Positions 50,836 through 64,000 of a DNA stretch of 64,000 bases are shown piece by piece (the stretch's first letter is position 1; every line of letters starts with the position of its first letter). The translations under genes were made by a program, and so were the position numbers. The stretch lies in the NCBI RefSeq assembly GCF_003206715.1, contig NZ_PZJU01000019.1, forward strand, positions 35,153 through 99,152. The letters are read 5' to 3'. The notes below the pieces were generated by a model, which worked only from the letters and a program-made list of their open reading frames with translations, did not search any database and had not been told where the DNA came from. This DNA is from Salinicola peritrichatus (GTDB lineage Bacteria; Pseudomonadota; Gammaproteobacteria; Pseudomonadales; Halomonadaceae).

Positions 50836-51282
50836 TTACTCCCTTGGGTCTTCTGCTTCTCTGAGCCCTTCATGCAATGACGCAATTAGCGGGCAAGTGA
50901 TATTGCCTTGTTGTGCATGGCATCGGTCGACCATTTCGCTCAGCACCTTCTCAATTCTTTCAAGCCTGTCGATCTTCTCGCGAACGTCCCCTAACTTGTG
51001 CTCTGCGAGAGCACTGGCTTCTTGACAGTGGGCGCCATCTTCCAGCCGAAGTAGGTCACTGATCTCATCCAGACTAAAGCCTAGCTGCTGCGCCGTTTTC
51101 ACGAACGTCAACCTGTCGATATCGGCGGCACTATAGCGTCGAATACCTCCGGGAGGTCGTTCGGGCTCCGATAATAGCCCTCGTCGCTGGTAATAGCGGA
51201 TTGTCTCGACATTGACGCCGGCCGCCTTGGCCAGGCCGCCAATGGTCATGGTGTCCGCCACTTTATCTGCATGTCTCTTCAT
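50836..51282 (-). CDS. merR: Mercury-responsive regulator MerR
   Basis: A 148-residue MerR. The N-terminal winged helix ([13 protein letters not shown] and [11 protein letters not shown]), the long dimer helix and the three Hg(II)-binding cysteines at 86, 121 and 130 have the same spacing as Cys82/117/126 of Tn501 MerR. It represses and, with Hg(II), activates the divergent merT promoter next to its start. Full length and apparently functional. Confidence 0.95.
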
Positions 51283-51287
51283 GATGC

Positions 51288-51318
51288 TTGACTCCGTACC
51301 AAGCTACGGAAGTAACCT
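51288..51318 (+). promoter_or_regulatory. merT promoter and MerR operator
   Basis: TTGACT (-35, 51288-51293), then a 19-bp spacer, then TAACCT (-10, 51313-51318). The over-long spacer is the mark of MerR-controlled promoters. The dyad CCGTA-N6-TACGG sits centrally in the spacer, matching the Tn501 arrangement. Confidence 0.92.
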
Positions 51319-51355
51319 TATCGTAGCTCCCCCCATCCCGAAAGGAGAATCGTCA

Positions 51356-51706
51356 ATGCGGACATCTAAAACGGGGCGAGGGCCCCTGGCCGCCGGAGGA
51401 GTCGCGGCCCTCCTGGCCTCGGCGTGTTGCCTCGGCCCGCTGGTTCTGATCACGCTGGGCGTTTCCGGCGCCTGGATCAGCAATCTGGCGTCGCTGGAGC
51501 GCTATCGCCCGCTCTTTATCGGCGTCGCGCTGGTGGCGATGTTCTTCGCCTGGCGTCGCGTCTTTCGGCCAGTGGAAAAGTGCCAGCCGGGAGAGGTGTG
51601 TGCCGTGCCACGGGTCAGGACGGGCTACAAGGCGATCTTCTGGCTCGTATCGCTGCTGGTGCTAATCGCCCTGGTATTCCCCTACGTCTTGCCCTTGTTC
51701 TATTAA
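51356..51706 (+). CDS. merT: Mercuric transport protein MerT
   Basis: A 116-residue inner-membrane protein with three helices. The first helix contains the Cys pair in SACCLGPL (about 24-25), and the cytoplasmic loop holds the second pair in EKCQPGEVCAV. These pass Hg(II) from MerP to MerA. I start at ATG 51356, eight bases after AAAGGAG. First gene of the mer operon. Confidence 0.95.
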   Translation: MRTSKTGRGPLAAGGVAALLASACCLGPLVLITLGVSGAWISNLASLERYRPLFIGVALVAMFFAWRRVFRPVEKCQPGEVCAVPRVRTGYKAIFWLVSLLVLIALVFPYVLPLFY

Positions 51707-51719
51707 AAGGAGATCTACC

Positions 51720-52016
51720 ATGAAAGCTCGTTTCGCCTTCATCGCGCTACTCGCCCTGCTCAGCACGCCCGCCTTAGCGGCCTTGCAGACCGTGAAGCTG
51801 TCGGTGCCGGGCATGACCTGTGCCGCCTGCCCGATCACCGTCAAGGCCGCCCTCAACAAGGTGGACGGCGTCTCGCAAGTCGACGTGAGCTACGCGGATC
51901 TCGAGGCCGTGGTCACCTTTGACGACGCCCGAACGTCGGTGGAGGCATTGACCGAGGCCACCACCAACGCTGGGTATCCATCAACCCCGACATCCTCGCA
52001 AGCGGATCGAGAGTGA
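51720..52016 (+). CDS. merP: Periplasmic mercury-binding protein MerP
   Basis: A 98-residue exported protein. Signal peptide about 1-20 (ALA end), then an HMA domain with GMTCAACP (Cys about 34 and 37), the Hg(II)-binding site. AAGGAG precedes the start. Its stop region overlaps the next gene. Confidence 0.95.
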   Translation: MKARFAFIALLALLSTPALAALQTVKLSVPGMTCAACPITVKAALNKVDGVSQVDVSYADLEAVVTFDDARTSVEALTEATTNAGYPSTPTSSQADRE

Positions 52017-52018
52017 TC

Positions 52019-52276
52019 ATGAAGAATCCCAAGACCCTGCTGCGCGTGAGCGTGATCGGCACCGTCCTGGTGGCATTGTGCTGCTTTACGCCGATCCTGG
52101 TGATCCTGCTTGGCACGGTGGGCCTGGCGGCGCTGACGGGCTATCTCGACGTTGTGTTATTGCCGGCCCTGGCCTTCTTCATCGGCCTGACCATTTATGC
52201 GATTTGGCGTAAGAAGCAGTTCGACGCCTGTTGTGACAACTGCTCTATCAAATCAAGGAATACGCCCCCTGAGTGA
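52019..52276 (+). CDS. merF: Mercury transporter MerF
   Basis: An 85-residue two-helix inner-membrane transporter with the vicinal Cys pair in VALCCFTP (helix 1) and a second cluster in DACCDNCS near the C-terminus, as in known MerF. I use ATG 52019; a GTG six bases upstream, overlapping the merP stop, is possible. Confidence 0.9.
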   Translation: MKNPKTLLRVSVIGTVLVALCCFTPILVILLGTVGLAALTGYLDVVLLPALAFFIGLTIYAIWRKKQFDACCDNCSIKSRNTPPE

Positions 52277-52349
52277 CATCAAGCAGCTGCACATCGCGGT
52301 CATCGGGTGAGTTGTTTACGAGCTTGTCCGTCACGGTGAAGGAATAAGC

Positions 52350-54237
<1,888 letters not shown>

Positions 54238-54863: not shown

Positions 54864-55190
54864 ATGAATTTCGGAAAATATAAGTCCTGTATAGAAGCTT
54901 GCAACGTATGTGCAACCTACTGTGACACCTGCGCAATCGCTTGCCTGAAGGAAGATGATGTCAAAATGATGGCAGAATGCATTCGCCTGGATATGCAATG
55001 TGCACAGATTTGCCGTCTGGCTGCTTCCTTGATGGCACAGGGTAGTGAATATGCTAGCGAAGTTTGCAGGATCTGTGCAGATATCTGCAAGAAGTGCGGC
55101 GACGAGTGTGCCAAGCATGATGCTGAGCACTGCCAGGAATGTGCCAAGGCATGTCATCGCTGTGCTGAAGAGTGCGCTGCTATGGCGTAA
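54864..55190 (+). CDS. Four-helix-bundle copper-binding protein (DUF326/Csp-like)
   Basis: A 108-residue protein with 19 cysteines spread in CXXXC and CXXC patterns along predicted helices (SCIEACNVCATYCDTCAIAC at the start). This is the copper-storage Csp3-type bundle, which holds many Cu(I) ions inside the tube. No signal peptide, so it is cytoplasmic. AAGGAG precedes ATG 54864. Base composition is lower in GC than neighbours, suggesting separate transfer. It probably protects against copper or similar soft metals and lies between the mer transposon and the complex-I-like operon. Confidence 0.9.
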   Translation: MNFGKYKSCIEACNVCATYCDTCAIACLKEDDVKMMAECIRLDMQCAQICRLAASLMAQGSEYASEVCRICADICKKCGDECAKHDAEHCQECAKACHRCAEECAAMA

Positions 55191-55486: not shown

Positions 55487-55834
55487 ATGGCATTAATGAC
55501 ACTCTTTGTCATTCTCATATTCAGCCTGGGCGCTGGGATACTGATGCAGTGTTTGCCTATGCGCCGCCAGACGAAGCCTCCGTGGTCTCAGCGGGCACCG
55601 TTTCTGGGCGGGGGTACGCCAGACAGTCATGCCTGGAGCCGCTACCACATTCGCTATTACCCCATGACGCTGCTGCTGATCGCCTTCGAGATGGAGATGA
55701 TGTTCATGTACCCGTGGGCAGTGGTCTTCGTCGAGAAGGGCATGAAGGCGATGATGGAAATGGGCATGTTCCTGGCCATCCTGTCAGTGGGTATCGTCTA
55801 TGCCTGGCGTGAAGGAGTGTTCAAGTGGCAGTGA
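55487..55834 (+). CDS. NuoA-like subunit of a complex-I-like assembly
   Basis: A 115-residue membrane protein with three helices, matching NuoA: after the first helix a loop (PFLGGGTPDSHAWSRYHIRYY) replaces the usual ECG-containing loop, then helix 2 has FEMEMMFMYPWAVVF, the conserved acidic stretch of NuoA (normally FDxExxxLxPW). The NuoA loop cysteine is missing, as elsewhere in this cluster redox-linked residues are lost. ATG 55487 follows GAGGA. First of eight tightly coupled genes. Confidence 0.82.
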   Translation: MALMTLFVILIFSLGAGILMQCLPMRRQTKPPWSQRAPFLGGGTPDSHAWSRYHIRYYPMTLLLIAFEMEMMFMYPWAVVFVEKGMKAMMEMGMFLAILSVGIVYAWREGVFKWQ

Positions 55835-57144
55835 ACTGGCTACGCAATCTTGCCTCGCGCAGGAGTGTTCCCGTGTTCCCCGTGTTAGGTGTGCAGGGGG
55901 ATAAGGCACTGCGACATCTCACATTGTCGCCAGACATCGAGCTGGTCGACTCACCGCGCCATGCCAGTGTGCTGCTGGTGGCAGGAGAAATCCCGGCTGA
56001 TCGGTTCGAACCTTTGCGCCGTGTGCATGATCAATTGCCATATCCCTTCACGACTTTGTGGTTCCGTTGCGAACCTTGGCCTCACCTGGAAAACGTGACT
56101 CGTATTGATGATCTGGATGTTTTGCCGGCGGCTCTGGTCACGGCGTATCACGAACTGATGGAAGGCCGCCGCGAAAGCTCGCCCAGAATCTTGTTGGATA
56201 AGCCGCCCAACCCCTGGGAGGGCGCGGGCGATTTCGGTCAGGGGGGCGAAGGCATGATGGGTGGCGTGCCCTACGGGCGGCCCATGGCGATGAATATGGA
56301 GGATGATATTCGCGACGGGCTGACGCTGGATTCGTTGACATTCCGGCTTGGGCCGTTCTTTTTCGCGTTTCCGCCGGGCATGGCGGCAGAAATCACGTTG
56401 CAGGGCGACCTCGTTCAGACATGGAAGACTCAGCGTGCGCCGTATCCACAGAGCCTTGATCCGGTGTTTTTCGCCGCCCGGAAACGACTGGTCCCCATCG
56501 CCGCGCTCGAGCTTGCCCGGGCCCGCCATCACTTGTATCGCTTGTTCCATGCGTTACATCTTGCCGGGCTGGAAAGTGCCAGCCTGAGCGCCTTGCGCTT
56601 GGCGAATAACCTGTCGACGACAAGCACGTTGGATGGGCTGCGTCGTTATTTATCGCGTAGCGGCTTCTTTCGCCTGGCTGCGATAAAAGGCGGTGAGCTC
56701 GGTCCCGAGCAGGCTCGCAGAATCGGTGGTCCAGCTGCTCGGGCTGCCGGATTGGACGAGGATCTGCGCTCAGACGATGCCGGCTATCGACGGCTGGGGT
56801 TCTCACCTGTGTGCCAGGCCAGTGGGGATACTCGTGCTCGCTGGCGGCAGGTTCTTGCAGAAATCGATCAGTCACTCCAGCTGGCTCGCCAGGCCGAGCG
56901 GGATGATGTGTCTACGAGTGAGGTAGATCGCATCGAGACTCCGCGTGGCCCTTGGCTCGAGAAGCGGCCAGAGGATGCGAGTGCACTCCTTGATGAGATA
57001 TTACCGGGCCAGGAGTGGGGCGATGCACTGGCTACCATCGCCAGCCTGGATGTAGCAGCCGTCGCTGAAGCACCGCTCGACACGCAAACGACCGGCGAGT
57101 CTCCGATAACGGAACTTTCGGACGATGAAGGGGGCCCTGCATGA
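55825..57144 (+). CDS. NuoB/NuoD-like fusion without cofactor ligands
   Basis: A 439-residue soluble protein. Residues about 1-100 follow the NuoB fold (VDSPRHASVLLVAGEIP, then LRRVHDQLPYPFTTLW), where NuoB has the N2-cluster cysteines, but the only Cys here is at WFRCEP. Residues about 150-420 resemble NuoD/[NiFe]-hydrogenase large subunit (TFRLGPFFFAFPPGMAAEI near the start, EILPGQEWGDALATIASLD near the end) without the quinone-site His/Tyr region or any CXXC nickel ligands. So it keeps the shape of the redox interface and lost the redox chemistry. GTG start at 55825 after AAGGAG, overlapping the NuoA-like stop. Confidence 0.78.
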   Translation: MAVNWLRNLASRRSVPVFPVLGVQGDKALRHLTLSPDIELVDSPRHASVLLVAGEIPADRFEPLRRVHDQLPYPFTTLWFRCEPWPHLENVTRIDDLDVLPAALVTAYHELMEGRRESSPRILLDKPPNPWEGAGDFGQGGEGMMGGVPYGRPMAMNMEDDIRDGLTLDSLTFRLGPFFFAFPPGMAAEITLQGDLVQTWKTQRAPYPQSLDPVFFAARKRLVPIAALELARARHHLYRLFHALHLAGLESASLSALRLANNLSTTSTLDGLRRYLSRSGFFRLAAIKGGELGPEQARRIGGPAARAAGLDEDLRSDDAGYRRLGFSPVCQASGDTRARWRQVLAEIDQSLQLARQAERDDVSTSEVDRIETPRGPWLEKRPEDASALLDEILPGQEWGDALATIASLDVAAVAEAPLDTQTTGESPITELSDDEGGPA

Positions 57145-58067
57145 TCGTCGAGGAGCTGGTCCTGCCGGTGCTTATGGTGTTTTTCATGCTGGCTGCAGGC
57201 GCTTACACGGTTGCGGTACTCGACCGTGTCATTGCCGGTGCGCTTGGCACGCCTCAGACCGGCAGTGTCTGGATTGCCCCCTTGGCGCGAGGGGCCTGGT
57301 TGATGACCCAGCACGCCAATGCCACCGAAGCCCCGGACTGGCGGGCTTGGCGACTGGCTCCGGCGCTTTATCTTTCTTTGGCCGCCATCGGGCTGGCCGT
57401 CGTGCCATGGTCGGGGTCGCTGGTCGCTACTGACCTGGTCACCAGCGTGGTGCTGTGGGGCAGCGTGGAAGCACTGGCGACCGTGGTCATCTTCCTGCAT
57501 GGCTGGTCGGCCAATGCGCTATTCGCTTTGATCGGCGGCTACCGTTATGTGGCACTAGGGCTTTCCTACATTCTGATCAGCATGTTCGTGCTGATCGGCG
57601 TGGCATTGCCGGCCGAGTCGCTGCAGTTCACCCAGGTAGTCGCCTCGCAAGAAGAACTGTGGAATGTCATCCGCCAGCCGCTGGGATTACCGCTGTTTCT
57701 TATCGTCGGCCTAGGCATGACCTTCTGGGGGCCGCTCAACCTGGCCGATTCGGCAGATCTGGCTGGCGGCACGGCCGCTGAGATATCCGGGCCACCGCGG
57801 CTGGTCTGGGATGTGGCGCGTGCCGCAATGCTGGTGGCTTTCAGCGGCGTGGCAACGAGCGCCTTTCTGGGCGGTTGGCTGGGGCCCTGGTTGCCTGGGC
57901 CACTATGGGTGGCCATAAAGATGCTGGCAGTGTTGCTCGTGCTGTTATTGCTTGGCCGATTGCTGCCGCGCCTGGCGCCGGAGCGCTGCGTCACCTTGAT
58001 GTGGGTCATTTTGCTGCCGCTGTCGTTTATCGATCTGGTATGGGCCGGTGTAGGAGCGTTGTTGTGA
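57141..58067 (+). CDS. NuoH-like membrane subunit
   Basis: A 308-residue protein with about eight helices, the heel subunit that joins the soluble arm to the antiporter-like subunits. The recognisable segment is GMTFWGPLNLADSADLAGGT followed by AEISGPPRLVWD, equivalent to the NuoH quinone-site loop, though the charged E-channel motif is altered. Overlaps the B/D fusion by four bases and the NuoJ-like gene by four. Confidence 0.8.
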   Translation: MIVEELVLPVLMVFFMLAAGAYTVAVLDRVIAGALGTPQTGSVWIAPLARGAWLMTQHANATEAPDWRAWRLAPALYLSLAAIGLAVVPWSGSLVATDLVTSVVLWGSVEALATVVIFLHGWSANALFALIGGYRYVALGLSYILISMFVLIGVALPAESLQFTQVVASQEELWNVIRQPLGLPLFLIVGLGMTFWGPLNLADSADLAGGTAAEISGPPRLVWDVARAAMLVAFSGVATSAFLGGWLGPWLPGPLWVAIKMLAVLLVLLLLGRLLPRLAPERCVTLMWVILLPLSFIDLVWAGVGALL

Positions 58068-58699
58068 TAGAGAGCATGAGTCACGGTATCGGCGTTGATA
58101 TCGCATTTCTGCTGTTGGCCACGCTGGCAGTGGTAACCGCTTGGCGAGTGTTTCGTACCGATTCGATGGTGCGAGCCTCCTTTTTCCTGCTGGTGTCGTT
58201 CATCGCCGTGGGTGTGATCATGATTCTGCTAGCGGCGGAATATCTGGGCGTGGCGATGTTCTTCATGATGGCCGTCGAGATGACGGTCATGGCGCTATTC
58301 ATGGTCATGTTCATGATGAATCCAGCCGGTCTGAATCCGATGAACATGGTCCATCAGGAGCGAATCTCGATCGGGGCAGGGGTGGTCAGCTTCCTGGTGC
58401 TGAGTGCCATGGCACTGTTGGCTGTCTTTCCCGACCGGCCGGTGTCGGCCGGCCTCGACCCGGTAAGGTCACTCGGCAACGAAATGCTAGGTGATTCGAT
58501 GCTGATCTTCGAGTCGGCGGGCCTCGTGCTGCTTACCACCATGATCGGCGTGGTGGTGTTGTCGAGTCACCGTGGACGCTACGGCGCGGCCACGGAGGGC
58601 TCGCTACCACCGGGGCTGGAGTCGGGCGGCGATCCGGCGGGCAAGCCCGAAGAGGACGAAGATGGCGAGGATGGCGGTCATCACCACCATCACCACTGA
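58064..58699 (+). CDS. NuoJ-like membrane subunit with hexahistidine tail
   Basis: A 211-residue protein with five helices of NuoJ type, including the pi-bulge helix region AEYLGVAMFFMMAVEMTVMA. The C-terminal 35 residues form an acidic, Gly-rich cytoplasmic tail ending in EDGEDGGHHHHHH, six consecutive His at the very end, which could bind Ni/Zn/Co. I start at GTG 58064, eight bases after AGGAG and overlapping the NuoH-like stop; ATG 58076 is an alternative. The overlap supports coupling. Confidence 0.8.
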   Translation: MIESMSHGIGVDIAFLLLATLAVVTAWRVFRTDSMVRASFFLLVSFIAVGVIMILLAAEYLGVAMFFMMAVEMTVMALFMVMFMMNPAGLNPMNMVHQERISIGAGVVSFLVLSAMALLAVFPDRPVSAGLDPVRSLGNEMLGDSMLIFESAGLVLLTTMIGVVVLSSHRGRYGAATEGSLPPGLESGGDPAGKPEEDEDGEDGGHHHHHH

Positions 58700-58726
58700 C
58701 CTATGCAGACAGGCAAGGAGGCTTGA

Positions 58727-59032
58727 ATGACACTGGCGACACTTTTGCTATTGGCAGCGGCACTGATCGGCATCGGCATTTATGGCGCGCTTTCCCAGCA
58801 GTCATTCGTGATGCTGATGATGGGTCTTGAGCTGATCCTCAATGGCGTCATGCTGGCTGCCGTGGCGTTCTGGGCCTTTAGCGGGGCCGGCGCGCCGGAA
58901 GGGCAACTGCTGACGATCATCGTCATGGCAGTGATGGCTATCGAGATGACCATGGGCTTTGCTTTGGTGGTAGCGGTCTTCCGCGGTAAGCAGGCCGACA
59001 CGACCGAATCACTGACCGGGTTGAAGCACTGA
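58727..59032 (+). CDS. NuoK-like membrane subunit
   Basis: A 101-residue three-helix protein with the NuoK/MrpC pattern. Conserved glutamates are in LMMGLELILNGVMLA (about 35) and AIEMTMGFALVV (about 70), the pair required for proton transfer in complex I. AAGGAGG precedes ATG 58727. Its stop overlaps the NuoL-like start by one base. Confidence 0.88.
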   Translation: MTLATLLLLAAALIGIGIYGALSQQSFVMLMMGLELILNGVMLAAVAFWAFSGAGAPEGQLLTIIVMAVMAIEMTMGFALVVAVFRGKQADTTESLTGLKH

Positions 59033-60942
59033 TGTTGTGGTCGATAGCTCTGCTGCCGCTACTGGCTGCTCCCGTCATGTATTGGCTTGGCAAGCACGGG
59101 TTCGATAAACACTGGTTTGGCAAGAATAGCGGCCGTGCCGTGTTGGGCCTGGCGGGGGTAGGCGTCGCGATCGTCACCCTGATGCTCGCTGGTCTCGCGA
59201 TTCTGGGTGACTGGAGTGGGGCTTACCGCTGGAGTTCACAGATCGTCCTGCTGATCGGGGTGACGCCAGTCAGTGCGGTGTTTGCTATCGTCGTGCCGCT
59301 GATCGCCGCGCTGATCGTTCTTTACAGCACTTACCACGAATCGGAACCTGGCGGTGATGGCGCAACGACAGGGCAGGCTCCTGCCAGGTTGATCGCCCTG
59401 CTGACGGCTTTTATCGGGGCGATGGAACTGTTGGTACTGGCTGAGGATCTGGTGACCCTGCTGATCGCGTGGGAGTTGGTAGGTGCCTGTTCATGGGCAC
59501 TGATTTCCCATGATTGGCAGAAGACCGGCAATCTTCGGGATGCCGCTTGCGCGTTTCTGGTGACGCGTTTCGGGGACCTGGGGCTCTATATTGCTGCAGC
59601 GGCAGCTTATGCCGGCACCGGCTCGTTTGCCTTTGCTGACCTGACCCAACTCGATGGATGGCTGCTGAACGTATTCGTTGCCGGCGCGGTGTTGGCGGCG
59701 GCCGCAAAGTCCGCCCAGGTTCCATTCTCTCCGTGGCTATTTGCCGCCATGTCGGGGCCAACGCCGGTATCGGCATTGCTGCATGCGGCGACCATGGTCG
59801 CGGCGGGCATCTATCTGGTCATCAGACTCCATGCAGAGATGTCCGCCGTTGCCTGGTTTGGGCCGGTCGCGATCGCGTTAGGCCTGGCCACTGCCCTGGC
59901 AGGGGGTGCCGTGGCCTATCTTCAGGGGCATGCCAAGAAGCTTCTGGCGGCTTCGACATCGGCCCAGTATGGCTTGATGTGGTTGGCGGTGGGGGCAGGC
60001 TTTCCCGGTGTTGCCCTGGTGCACTTCGTCACGCATGCGTTCATGAAAGCTGCCCTGTTCCTGGCAGCCGGCATCGCCGAACGCCATGTCGGCAGCTACT
60101 CGCTAACTGCGATGCGCCTCGGGCGTCTGCTTCCGGGTATCGCGGTAGCCACCCTTGTGGCCAGTCTGGCACTGGCAGGGGTCGTCCCGCTGAGTGCGGC
60201 CTGGAGTAAGGAGGAGATCATCACTGCCGCTGGCCATCAGGCGTCCTGGCTGGCCGTGGTCGCCGCCATCGCGGGCGGGCTCAGCGCCCTGTATGCGACA
60301 CGCTTTCAACTGTTGGCGTTCGGGCGTGGCCCGCATGGCGGTACGAGCACTGCGCCATCCCAGCCAGGTCATACCCGGATGGAAGCCATCGCGCTTTATC
60401 TGTTATCGGCAGCCACGCTGGTGCTGTCATTACTCTGGTGGCCTGGTGTCGGAACCCGTCTTGCTGATCTCTTATCAGTCGATCTTCCCCGATCCAAGCC
60501 ATGGGAACTGATCGTATCGCTACTGTTGGTGGCGTCGGGCATTGTCCTGGGTGTCTGGGCGGTACGTCGTGAGGTATCAGACTCAGGTCGACAAAGTGCC
60601 AGGCGTACCGAGTTGGCGGACTGGTTCGGCCTGCCGACGTTGGCCGAACGTGGTGTGGGCGCAATGATGGCGTTCAGCCATGGCCTCGCGCGCTTCGATG
60701 ATCGCGTGGTGGATGCGGGTATCCAAGCCAGTGCCCGTTTCGGAGCATGGCTGGCCAAAATGGGCGATCGTCGTGGCGAAGGTGTGCTCGATGGCGCGAC
60801 GAGCCAGCTGGCGAAAGGTATCGACTGGGTGGGTCAATCGGCGCGCCAGGCCCACACCGGCCAAACGCATCATTACTACACCGGCATCGCGGCAGGACTC
60901 GCCGCGATCCTGATAATCCTGGGCATAGGAGCGCTCCTTTGA
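59032..60942 (+). CDS. NuoL-like antiporter subunit
   Basis: A 636-residue membrane protein with about 16 helices and the long C-terminal lateral helix region (charged stretch about 510-600, then a final anchor helix). The proton-path residues are present: Glu in LIAWELVGACSWAL, Lys in AAAKSAQVPFSPWL, His in SALLHAATMVAAG and Lys in GHAKKLLAASTSAQYG. Distinct from DabB, which is shorter. Upstream and downstream overlaps tie it to K and M. It should conduct protons or sodium. Confidence 0.9.
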   Translation: MLWSIALLPLLAAPVMYWLGKHGFDKHWFGKNSGRAVLGLAGVGVAIVTLMLAGLAILGDWSGAYRWSSQIVLLIGVTPVSAVFAIVVPLIAALIVLYSTYHESEPGGDGATTGQAPARLIALLTAFIGAMELLVLAEDLVTLLIAWELVGACSWALISHDWQKTGNLRDAACAFLVTRFGDLGLYIAAAAAYAGTGSFAFADLTQLDGWLLNVFVAGAVLAAAAKSAQVPFSPWLFAAMSGPTPVSALLHAATMVAAGIYLVIRLHAEMSAVAWFGPVAIALGLATALAGGAVAYLQGHAKKLLAASTSAQYGLMWLAVGAGFPGVALVHFVTHAFMKAALFLAAGIAERHVGSYSLTAMRLGRLLPGIAVATLVASLALAGVVPLSAAWSKEEIITAAGHQASWLAVVAAIAGGLSALYATRFQLLAFGRGPHGGTSTAPSQPGHTRMEAIALYLLSAATLVLSLLWWPGVGTRLADLLSVDLPRSKPWELIVSLLLVASGIVLGVWAVRREVSDSGRQSARRTELADWFGLPTLAERGVGAMMAFSHGLARFDDRVVDAGIQASARFGAWLAKMGDRRGEGVLDGATSQLAKGIDWVGQSARQAHTGQTHHYYTGIAAGLAAILIILGIGALL

Positions 60943-62426
60943 TTCTCACTGCAGCCTTGGGACTCCCCATGCTGGGGGCTCTCGTACTCGCTATTTCATG
61001 CCGTTGGACCGAGGCCACGGCTCGCCTGTTTGCCATCGTGGTCTCGGTGTTACCCGTATTGTTACTGGCCTGGGTGTGGCTACAGTTCGACCTGCAAGGT
61101 GCTCTCTTCCAGTTCGTCGAGGAGGTGCCCTGGGTCCCCAGCCTGGGTATGGGGTACAGGTTGGGCGTGGATGGCATTGCGCTGGCCGTGGCGACGATGA
61201 GCGCAGTTGTCTTCGCTGCCAGTATCGCTTACCCCGTCAACACCCAGAACCAGCCTCGGCAGTACTATGCCTGGATGCTTTTTCTGCAGTCCGTGTCACT
61301 CGGGGTCTTTCTGGCGTTGGACTTGCTGCTCTTCTATGTCTTTTTCGATTTGAGTCTAGTGGGAATGTTTTTCCTGATCGGTCGATGGGGGCACGGCCAG
61401 GCTCAGCTAGCCGCATTCAAGTTCTTTCTTTACACCTTCTGCGGCTCGCTGCTGCTGCTGTTGGCGATCATCGGGCTTTATCTATCGGTCGAACCGCATA
61501 CCTTTGACATGCGTGTGCTGATCGAACAGCAGCCACTCGCGGGGGCGGGAGTCACTGGCGGTCTGGTGTTCCTCGCCCTGATGCTTGGCTTCGCCATCAA
61601 GACGCCGGTCGTGCCCGTCCATACGTGGCTGCCGCAAGCGCATGTCGATGCCCCGGGTCCGGCCTCGGCGATCCTTGCCGGAGTGCTGCTCAAGATGGGC
61701 ACTTACGGGATCATCCGCATTCCGTTTTCGATGATGGCAGAGACGTTCTCCCGTTATGCCCTGATCATCGCGCTTTTGGCTGTCGTATCCATTCTCTATG
61801 GCGCCTTCGTGGCACTCGGCCAGAAGAATTTGAAGCGACGTATTGCCTACACCTCGATCAATCACATGGGCTATACGGTGCTCGGGATTGCGGTGGCTGG
61901 CGCATTGGTTCAGGAGGCGGGATACGCTCGTGAGTTGGCTCTGGTAGGGGCCACGGTGCAAATGGTGGCGCACGGCCTGATTACCGGGGCGCTGTTCCTG
62001 ATCTGTGGCTCGTTCTGGCAGCGCACCGAGGAGTACGATCTGGACAGTTATGGGGGGCTGCTCCGGCAGGCCCCGCTGCTGACCGCGTTTGCCGTGCTCG
62101 CGTCGTTTGCCAGTCTAGGCCTTCCTGGCCTGGCCGGCTTTGTGGCGGAATTCCATATCTTTGTCGGTACCTTTGGCGTCTATCCCTGGCTCGCCGTCAT
62201 TGGCGTGCTGGGCATTCTGGTCACGGCTGCCTTGTTTTTACAGATGCTGCAGAAATTGTTCTTTGGAACGATGCCTCAACGCTGGGACCAGTTCGAGGAT
62301 CTGCATGCCACAGAGTGGGGAGTGCTCGCCGTGCTGTCGGCAGGTTTCGTGGTCATCGGCGTCGCACCGCAGTTCCTGCTGACGTTGATAGAAGCCTCCG
62401 CGACGCTGTTGGTGGGAGGCCACTGA
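60939..62426 (+). CDS. NuoM-like antiporter subunit
   Basis: A 495-residue, 14-helix protein. Key motif segments are FYVFFDLSLVGMFFLIG (Asp where NuoM normally has Glu144), FAIKTPVVPVHTWLPQAHVD (Lys present) and KRRIAYTSINHMGY. I start at TTG 60939, seven bases after AGGAG and overlapping the NuoL-like stop; the first in-frame ATG (60969) has no site. Its stop overlaps the NuoN-like start. Confidence 0.87.
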   Translation: MILTAALGLPMLGALVLAISCRWTEATARLFAIVVSVLPVLLLAWVWLQFDLQGALFQFVEEVPWVPSLGMGYRLGVDGIALAVATMSAVVFAASIAYPVNTQNQPRQYYAWMLFLQSVSLGVFLALDLLLFYVFFDLSLVGMFFLIGRWGHGQAQLAAFKFFLYTFCGSLLLLLAIIGLYLSVEPHTFDMRVLIEQQPLAGAGVTGGLVFLALMLGFAIKTPVVPVHTWLPQAHVDAPGPASAILAGVLLKMGTYGIIRIPFSMMAETFSRYALIIALLAVVSILYGAFVALGQKNLKRRIAYTSINHMGYTVLGIAVAGALVQEAGYARELALVGATVQMVAHGLITGALFLICGSFWQRTEEYDLDSYGGLLRQAPLLTAFAVLASFASLGLPGLAGFVAEFHIFVGTFGVYPWLAVIGVLGILVTAALFLQMLQKLFFGTMPQRWDQFEDLHATEWGVLAVLSAGFVVIGVAPQFLLTLIEASATLLVGGH

Positions 62427-63835
62427 TGCCTATCGGTGACGTACTGCCGGAAATCAGTCTGACGCTTGGCGCCGTGATTATTGTTCTGTTCGCTACCTTT
62501 ACTCGGCAGCAACAGCATCACTGGGCAGCCGTTCTGGCCCTGCTGACAATTGCCCTTGGTGCGGGGCTGACTCTTGCGCAGTGGGATGGACCGCCGCAGC
62601 TGACGTTCTCCGGGGTCTGGGCGCTGGATGGTATGGCGATCTCCAGCAAGCTGGTGGTGCTGATCGCCGGGGCGCTTGTCGTCGCGATGTCGCCTGAATG
62701 GATGCAGACCGATCGCCGACATGGTGAGTACTACGCATTGCTCCTGTTCGCCCTGCTGGGCGTCGTCATGATGGCGTCAGCCAGCGATACCATGGAGTTG
62801 GTGCTGGGCGTGCTGTTGTCCTCGGTGGCCAGTTACCCATTGGCTGCCTACCACCGTGGCTGGGCGCCTGCTCTGGAAGCCGGCATGAAGTATTTTCTGA
62901 TCGGCGCTCTTACCAATGCCTTGCTGACGATCGGTGTGGTGGTGGTGTTCGGCCTGACCGGCAATACCGGCTATACGGAAGTCGCCCAGGGGCTGGCTGG
63001 AGGAAGTGACAGCCTGGCACTGACCATCGCCACCGCTTGTATCGTGCTGGGCCTGACTTTCAAGCTGGCAGCTTTCCCGGCCCATGCCTGGATGCCCGAT
63101 GTCGCCCAGGGCTCACCGGCCCCGGCAGCTGCCTTTCTGACCGTGATCCCCAAAATTGGCGCCGCCGTCGCGTTGGCGCGCTTTGTGTCCCTGCTACCGC
63201 CAGACGTCGCCTGGCGAGCGATTGTCGCTGTGATCTCTGTCACGACCATGACGCTGGGCAATGTGGCTGCACTGCGGCAGACAGACGTGCGGCGCCTGCT
63301 GGGCTGGTCATCGGTCTCCCAGTCCGGATATGCCCTGATGGCGATCGTGGTAATGGGCGTTGGCGATCAGGCTTTGCCCGCATTGGTGTTGTTTCTCGCG
63401 AGCTACGCCATTGCCAATCTCGCGGCCTTCGCTGTGGTCACATACCTAAGAGGGCGCACCGCACTAGCGGATTACCAAGGTTTGGTGAAAAACGCACCGA
63501 TCGCCACCCTGGTTCTGATCATGTCGCTGCTATCTTTGGTCGGTATCCCACCTCTTGTCGGATTTTTCGGCAAGCTGATGCTATTCAAGGTCACGCTCGA
63601 AGGAGGATACGCCTGGCTGGCATTCGCGGCCGCCGCCAATACCGTCGTCTCGCTGTTTTATTATCTGCGCATCGTTGCCTCAATGATGTTCGCCAATTCC
63701 AGGCCCGTCGTTCATGTGCTGCCAGGCCAATGGACGAGGATCACGATGGTCATTGCCGGCCTATTGATCCTGGCTATTGGCTTGGGGGCGGAAGTCCTGG
63801 TCGAATATACAAGTGCCATCGGATTCGCGATGTAG
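62426..63835 (+). CDS. NuoN-like antiporter subunit
   Basis: A 469-residue, about 14-helix protein. Lys and His segments are kept (GLTFKLAAFPAHAWMPDV and TVIPKIGAAVALARF), but helix 5, normally with a Glu in LELLSL, reads LVLGVLLSSVASY with Val/Gly instead, so one proton-path carboxylate is lost. It completes the set of three antiporter-like subunits (L, M, N). Last gene of the operon; the next gene starts 63 bp later with its own site. Confidence 0.87.
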   Translation: MPIGDVLPEISLTLGAVIIVLFATFTRQQQHHWAAVLALLTIALGAGLTLAQWDGPPQLTFSGVWALDGMAISSKLVVLIAGALVVAMSPEWMQTDRRHGEYYALLLFALLGVVMMASASDTMELVLGVLLSSVASYPLAAYHRGWAPALEAGMKYFLIGALTNALLTIGVVVVFGLTGNTGYTEVAQGLAGGSDSLALTIATACIVLGLTFKLAAFPAHAWMPDVAQGSPAPAAAFLTVIPKIGAAVALARFVSLLPPDVAWRAIVAVISVTTMTLGNVAALRQTDVRRLLGWSSVSQSGYALMAIVVMGVGDQALPALVLFLASYAIANLAAFAVVTYLRGRTALADYQGLVKNAPIATLVLIMSLLSLVGIPPLVGFFGKLMLFKVTLEGGYAWLAFAAAANTVVSLFYYLRIVASMMFANSRPVVHVLPGQWTRITMVIAGLLILAIGLGAEVLVEYTSAIGFAM

Positions 63836-63898: not shown

Positions 63899-64000
63899 AT
63901 GTCACCTGCTCAAGATTTGGCTATCGAAACGCCCGATAGCATCCACGCGAAAGAATGGCTACGCGCCTATCAGCGGGTCCGTGCCGCCACCGAAATGATC
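63899..64000 (+). CDS. Probable EgtB-like protein (start only)
   Basis: The first 34 residues of a gene cut by the window edge, with AGGAGGG before ATG 63899. The segment KEWLRAYQRVRAATEMI resembles the N-terminal helix of EgtB/DinB-type sulfoxide synthases of ergothioneine synthesis (usual pattern YxxVRxxTExL). Too little is visible for certainty. Confidence 0.4.
   Translation, partial: MSPAQDLAIETPDSIHAKEWLRAYQRVRAATEMI

Follow-up and report, generated by a model that had tools for sequence, protein, structure and literature searches.

A complex-I-like operon without recognizable redox ligands, linked to copper resistance and possibly to proton-driven Cu(I) handling

The 64,000-nucleotide stretch of Salinicola peritrichatus DNA considered here (contig NZ_PZJU01000019.1, positions 35,153 to 99,152; hereafter the window) contains at 55487-63835 an operon of eight complex-I-like genes in the order A, B/D fusion, H, J, K, L, M, N. 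The operon belongs to a widespread family whose link with copper is well supported. Open reading frames and Pfam matches confirm the gene set named in an original prediction made without database searches (Table 1). Six of the seven gene junctions overlap by 1-10 nt, and a gap of 27 nt separates J and K. All three antiporter subunits are present, with Proton_antipo_M matches of E 3e-43 to 5e-65, and the predicted lateral-helix-type C-terminal extension of the NuoL-like protein can be aligned with that of Escherichia coli NuoL. The prediction would have fallen had the NADH genes E, F and G or the Fe-S gene I followed the operon. None was found to its right, where egtB and egtD are followed instead, on the opposite strand, by copB- and copA-oxidase-type genes. 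Likewise, no homologue of B, CD, E, F, G or I at 50% coverage or more occurs in 90 family loci; nuoG-type matches appear only at L013 and L065, both weak, the former annotated as a formate dehydrogenase. The same genome (4.6 Mb) also encodes an ordinary NuoD (E 1.4e-107) surrounded, as judged by eye, by other nuo genes, and family genes are themselves annotated as NADH-quinone oxidoreductase subunits.

Table 1. Features of the operon and its immediate flanks, in window coordinates (TM, transmembrane helix).
Feature	Position	Strand	Basis and remarks
DUF326 Cys-rich protein, just upstream of the operon	54864..55190	+	Pfam DUF326 8.5e-13
NuoA-like	55487..55834	+	Pfam Oxidored_q4 7e-24; ATG start
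B/D fusion: NuoB-like N-terminal and NuoD-like C-terminal half	55825..57144	+	Pfam Complex1_49kDa 3.5e-8, hhalign, AlphaFold, Foldseek; GTG start
B/D Met-rich segment, residues 138-158, GQGGEGMMGGVPYGRPMAMNM	56236..56298	+	Alignment of 70 B/D
NuoH-like	57141..58067	+	Pfam NADHdh 4e-39; ATG start
NuoJ-like	58064..58699	+	Pfam Oxidored_q3 2e-18, profile matches to solved NuoJ chains; GTG start
J Met-rich TM3 and following loop, residues 61-98	58244..58357	+	Met columns, Y59 to M, A62 to E; helix 61-85 in low-confidence model
J C-terminal His tail, HHHHHH	58679..58696	+	His count in family J
NuoK-like, E36 and E72 positions acidic	58727..59032	+	Pfam Oxidored_q2 2e-15; ATG start
NuoL-like antiporter subunit with C-terminal extension	59032..60942	+	Pfam Proton_antipo_M; ATG start
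NuoM-like antiporter subunit	60939..62426	+	Pfam Proton_antipo_M; TTG start
NuoN-like antiporter subunit, TM5 Glu replaced	62426..63835	+	Pfam Proton_antipo_M; ATG start
Start of egtB (ergothioneine biosynthesis), extending past the window edge, egtD next	63899..64000	+	Pfam FGE-sulfatase and DinB_2

The B/D fusion retains the architecture of its complex I counterparts but not their chemistry. Its NuoB half is detected by profile only, with 54 columns aligned to E. coli NuoB (hhalign probability 74, E 2.8e-5), and also matches PSST/NuoB chains in a profile search; 73 columns of the other half align to NuoD. The AlphaFold model of the fusion (pLDDT, the predicted local confidence, 87.5) matches 49 kDa/NuoD chains in Foldseek (best E 6.9e-7, template modelling score 0.39-0.45 by query length), and the list of matches also holds MBS (6u8y) and formate hydrogenlyase (7z0s). 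Certain Alphaproteobacteria have a much shorter D half. As predicted, the protein lacks recognizable cluster and nickel ligands: no Cys column is conserved among 70 B/D sequences, the richest having Cys in 18, so that the four-Cys ligand set of cluster N2 is absent. The quinone-site segment of NuoD, GPNHPSAHG with two His in E. coli, reads GPxxPxxPPG-like in the family, and contains any His in only 8 of the 69 sequences in which it could be located. NuoH E157 is replaced as well, and an ordinary complex I variant is rejected on these ligands.

The linker joining the two halves, which the original prediction overlooked, is among the most conserved parts of the protein and looks like a metal-binding-type segment. 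M144 and M145 are found in 70/70 sequences, M154 in 69/70 and M156 in 67/70, and the strict motif GMMGGxPYGRxMxM in 66/70; residues 141-152 are modelled at pLDDT below 50. A sister group with the same operon carries at the B-D junction one to three CPMHP-type repeats together with long His-rich runs, and Pfam assigns these repeats to HMBD, the heavy metal binding domain (2.6e-28 for L130). Because the HMBD and His-rich runs sit between the same B and D halves, the family has two versions of a metal-type linker, Met-rich and HMBD/His-rich, at one place.

A second set of unusual residues lies in the membrane subunits. Family NuoJ sequences (93, comprising 85 with the Met-type and eight with the HMBD-type linker) were compared with 31 canonical ones, namely E. 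coli NuoJ and the 30 best-scoring loci from 92 genomes matched among 100 searched. In thirteen columns, 90 or more of the 93 have Met; in the canonical set the same columns hold Met in 31/31 at M72, 8/31 at L152 and 1/31 at V138 (E. coli numbering), and otherwise in none. At two positions the exchange is complete, Tyr59 (31/31 canonical) being Met and Ala62 (31/31) being Glu in all 93 family members. The Met columns are common to Met-type and HMBD-type J despite a mean identity of 0.41 between them. Of 89 family J, 72 have four or more His among their 25 C-terminal residues, and the positive-inside rule and a low-confidence model would place both this tail and the Met-rich TM3-4 loop on the cytoplasmic side. 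In NuoA, the 86 Met-type sequences show seven Met columns (Met in 90% or more of members), against four in the HMBD type and none in the 31 canonical sequences, and TM2 of the window operon reads FEMEMMFMY. NuoK has five Met columns versus one in the canonical set, one of the five also being Met in 28/31 canonical sequences.

The membrane arm, consisting of A, H, J and K with L, M and N, preserves a Lys/Glu proton path. The residues discussed (E. coli numbering) are those with proton-path roles. E144, K229, K305, K342 and K399 of L, K234, K265 and E407 of M, K217, K247 and K395 of N, E36 of K and E81 of A are conserved throughout or almost throughout the family, and E72 of K is Asp in 7/84. 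Three exceptions stand out. NuoM E144 is Asp in 80/80 Met-type sequences, and across the family M keeps Asp or Glu while L keeps Glu; NuoN E133 in TM5 is Leu in 78/78 Met-type and Val or Leu in 4/4 HMBD-type sequences; and NuoH E157 has given way to other residues in 80 or more of 85, with the GPNRVG-type loop not kept.

The extent of the family was explored in several ways. A contig scan using the Met motif as search pattern located B/D relatives in 119 stretches and retained the 80 best. The same gene set follows B/D in these relatives as far as the contigs extend, and as the same set recurs the operon is not a chance assembly. A full-length protein search made without a motif pattern in 369 genomes of the class returned seven matches in five genomes, and all seven carry the Met motif. 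A family profile search of 398 genomes mostly matched ordinary NuoD, for which reason its 165 matches are not a family count; it did yield the sister group in four genomes, through matches lying outside the motif (profile 162-372 and 10-115). Around Marinobacter aromaticivorans (L064), a genus search found family J in 12 of 61 genomes, two Met-type and ten of the second kind by score. Five of these ten loci were read, and all five are HMBD-type, four of them with copper genes. A tree of J groups all 93 family members, but this is not proof of a single origin because the SH-like support of the split is only 0.09.

Some copies appear interrupted. On Martelella plasmid pMM259 (L017 11681-14248) the operon stops after the first part of B/D and is followed by an annotated ISL3 transposase, in a copper/arsenic region. 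Vreelandella plasmid pBAA-803-A (L014/L063) bears a frameshift-rich copy, where either pseudogenes or sequencing error could be responsible. At L130, a gene for a P-II family protein (202-525; Pfam 4.5e-14) lies directly upstream of an HMBD-type operon.

Copper markers occur at 47 of the 90 family loci versus 0 of 40 control regions (Fisher p 2.5e-10), the loci being unequal in length and not independent, with repeats between two genome collections included (e.g. L131 and L132). The markers were, in order, multicopper oxidase, CopB, CueR-like, P1B ATPase, CopD, azurin, cupredoxin, DUF411 and DUF326, and the first four alone give 36/90. The HMBD pattern, which matches B/D itself, and a small-HMA pattern were excluded, as were L063 (broken), L014 and L017 (broken or truncated), and L072 and L075; L022 and L021, of which the last two were taken to be repeats, are not in the list either, which leaves two loci uncounted. 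The controls were 20-kb regions at round coordinates in six family-bearing genomes. By genus, markers are present in 18 of 34 (71 of the 90 loci have a genus label). The survey of B/D relatives bears out the metal context of the original prediction, which had missed that copper-resistance genes are the commonest neighbors in relatives. In a function-blind clustering of neighboring open reading frames at 90 loci (94 minus L017, L063, L071 and L072, with two EgtB shadow-frame clusters set aside and names given by likeness or eye), the list was headed by CopA oxidase (19), CopB (18), EgtB (18), CueR-type (13), CopR (12) and EgtD (12). EgtB or EgtD is found at 20/90 family loci and 0/40 controls, and both genes are annotated at the corresponding place in L013.

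For the HMBD type, 12 plasmid records match, and all 12 were examined together with flanks of 10-14 kb. Named copper genes accompany eight (L235, L236, L237, L239, L240, L241, L242 and L243) and a heavy-metal P-type ATPase two more (L244 and L246), giving 10/12 with copper or heavy-metal genes; neither was present within the flanks read of L238 and L245. In the actinomycete Rubrobacter tropicus, a P-type ATPase, a metal-sensitive regulator and a copper ion binding protein precede the HMBD-type operon. The four loci from the 398-genome search showed, by eye, no clear copper setting.

Judged by its membrane arm, the family falls within the complex I superfamily, but it is not complex I, Mrp or an energy-converting-hydrogenase-related (Ehr) complex, since a defining feature of each is absent. 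Respiratory complex I (NDH-1, NuoA-N) shares with it homologous A, B, D, H, J, K, L, M and N subunits and the proton-path residues; the family differs in having no detected C, E, F, G or I, no Fe-S ligands and no conserved quinone-site His, and in possessing the metal-type linker and Met-rich J. The Mrp cation/proton antiporter is likewise redox-free and built on antiporter subunits, but consists of MrpA-G and is not known to contain homologues of NuoH, NuoD or NuoB or metal-binding parts, whereas NuoH and NuoD homologues are present here (Pfam, Foldseek). Ehr complexes and other relatives of group 4 [NiFe] hydrogenases (Ech, MBH, MBS and formate hydrogenlyase) have a similar large-subunit fold, as the matches to 6u8y and 7z0s indicate, yet they normally keep Ni-ligand Cys pairs or, failing these, Fe-S subunits; neither a conserved Cys among the 70 B/D sequences nor a nuoI homologue at the 90 loci was found. 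A further redox-free precedent is DAB2 (DabA-DabB), in which, according to the available part of the account, a NuoL-like subunit is proposed to supply proton motive force to a non-redox partner for vectorial CO2 hydration (PMC13144422). Unlike the family operon, DAB2 pairs a single antiporter-like subunit with a carbonic-anhydrase-like partner.

The complex retains its proton paths and E-channel acids, has lost the recognizable redox ligands and the quinone-site His, and has gained metal-type residues at the former place of redox input (B/D junction, J TM3 and A TM2). On the simplest reading, a metal would act in quinone's stead as driver or cargo. The observed gene composition, lost recognizable redox ligands, invariant metal-type residues, kept proton paths and copper neighborhoods form the basis from which we infer copper binding, copper transport, its direction and its coupling. 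A complex-I-type machine in which metal binding has taken over from the redox input, and which uses the proton motive force for Cu(I) handling, most likely export, is given close to an even chance. The B/D linker, Met-rich or, in the sister group, HMBD/His-rich, would capture cytoplasmic Cu(I) together with the TM3-4 loop and His tail of J, and the ion would then be handed along Met of J and A close to conserved acids of the E-channel. Its passage would be coupled to proton flow via the channels of L, M and the altered N. Proton influx would most likely drive Cu(I) to the periplasm, a direction favored because the setting is often one of copper detoxification, and there the neighbor-encoded CopA oxidase, CopB and Cus proteins may meet it. 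In its most specific form, this would be a giant antiporter and the first metal transporter of the complex I type: Cu(I) moving through a Met-lined E-channel region would replace electron transfer to quinone and be coupled to the long-range L/M/N proton path that also serves respiration; we consider that a real possibility, though short of an even one.

Several observations weigh against Cu(I) transport. The J model is poor (pLDDT 66.9), and family J sequences are closer to each other (mean identity 0.68) than canonical ones (0.46), which inflates the Met column counts. The helical moment of the seven family-only Met in J TM3 is not significant, being reached by 0.14 of random sets; a subset of five gives 0.004, but was chosen afterwards. 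Met-motif counts at the scan loci are biased, as the scan pattern was the motif itself. No copper marker was seen in the DNA examined at 43 of the 90 loci, and CueR-, CsoR- and cop-box-like operator patterns occur upstream of 2, 1 and 0 of 89 operons versus 1, 0 and 0 in shuffled sequence. Finally, several of the islands already contain copper P-type ATPases, whose role as Cu(I) exporters is established.

The original prediction was right in describing a complex-I-like operon free of cofactors, but the plain Mrp-like Na+/H+ antiporter or module docking on an unknown partner that it proposed would fit less well than a copper-coupled device, given the Met or HMBD linker, the fixed Met of J, the sister group and the copper neighbors. 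A modified exchanger fares better, if still rather unlikely: copper on B/D and J might only switch a Mrp-like cation/proton antiporter or proton valve, which would restore pH, Na+/K+ or membrane potential under copper stress while copper itself stayed unmoved. The conserved antiporter channels agree with such gating, Mrp is itself a complex-I relative working without redox, and many hosts have genus names typical of marine or halophilic bacteria. That redox-free complex-I relatives exist is also illustrated by what is available on DAB2 (PMC13144422). A mere sensor, however, would have no obvious need for Met columns in the membrane parts of J, A and K.

A copper-redox-driven pump would oxidize Cu(I), pass the electrons to quinone or another acceptor and use the energy to pump ions; Met-rich sites, which favor Cu(I), would suit it. 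Such a mechanism was suggested for Marinobacter in the portion available of Eddie et al. (2021; PMC8233155), but here it appears improbable, as no Fe-S relay is seen, His is missing from most quinone-site segments, NuoH E157 is replaced in nearly all members and the GPNRVG loop is not kept. Still less probable is a membrane module serving an unknown redox partner such as formate dehydrogenase, with copper genes as incidental fellow travelers on mobile islands. The loci lacking copper markers would suit it, as would a formate dehydrogenase near the operon, annotated in L013, recognized by eye in L082 and suspected in L065 from the weak nuoG-type match; formate dehydrogenase is, however, absent from the recurrent neighbor clusters listed, and the HMBD domains lie within the B/D protein itself. 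As a partner, formate dehydrogenase was rejected, occurring at a few loci only. That Met enrichment reflects antioxidant or hydrophobic substitution in a decaying complex I relic, as the loss of N E133 and H E157 might hint, is very hard to credit when distant members (Met- versus HMBD-type J) have the same residues and gene set and Lys/Glu network are kept.

The copper association is already in print for one strain. In Marinobacter atlanticus CP1, a NuoADHJKL cassette lies inside a copper operon and is co-expressed with it, and copper redox was suggested as a possible energy source, according to the available part of that report (Eddie et al., 2021; PMC8233155). That part gives nuoMN as missing and makes no mention of metal-binding features or a wider family (PMC8233155); M and N are present in the Marinobacter-genus loci L264-L268. 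In searches of an open-access library, nothing listed dealt with the metal-binding features, the family itself or its spread, and only PMC8233155 was seen to concern such a complex. It has long been asked how complex I links proton movement to an event far away, and nature may here have swapped quinone chemistry for metal binding while keeping the coupling path, which would offer a redox-free system for direct coupling tests. The family would also add a mobile, little-recognized component to bacterial copper resistance.

The surroundings of the window operon agree with the metal-resistance and mobile-element setting described in the original prediction. The DUF326 protein just upstream is presumably of the four-helix-bundle copper-binding type. 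To the left of its gene, genes of the mercury-resistance type (merR, merT, merP, small transporters and merA) were recognized by eye at 50836-54237, and at 22407-50778 a block resembling a conjugative element with type IV secretion, after which comes an ISL3-like transposase. With this block and transposase nearby, an integrated element may carry the operon as cargo. A second full copy of the operon lies about 39 kb beyond the first on the same contig of about 130 kb (L005 7507-17717); its B/D is 75% identical, and it is likewise flanked by a DUF326 gene before and egtB after. Between the two copies, a CopA-type oxidase, response regulator/sensor pairs and a P-type ATPase, among others, were identified by eye.

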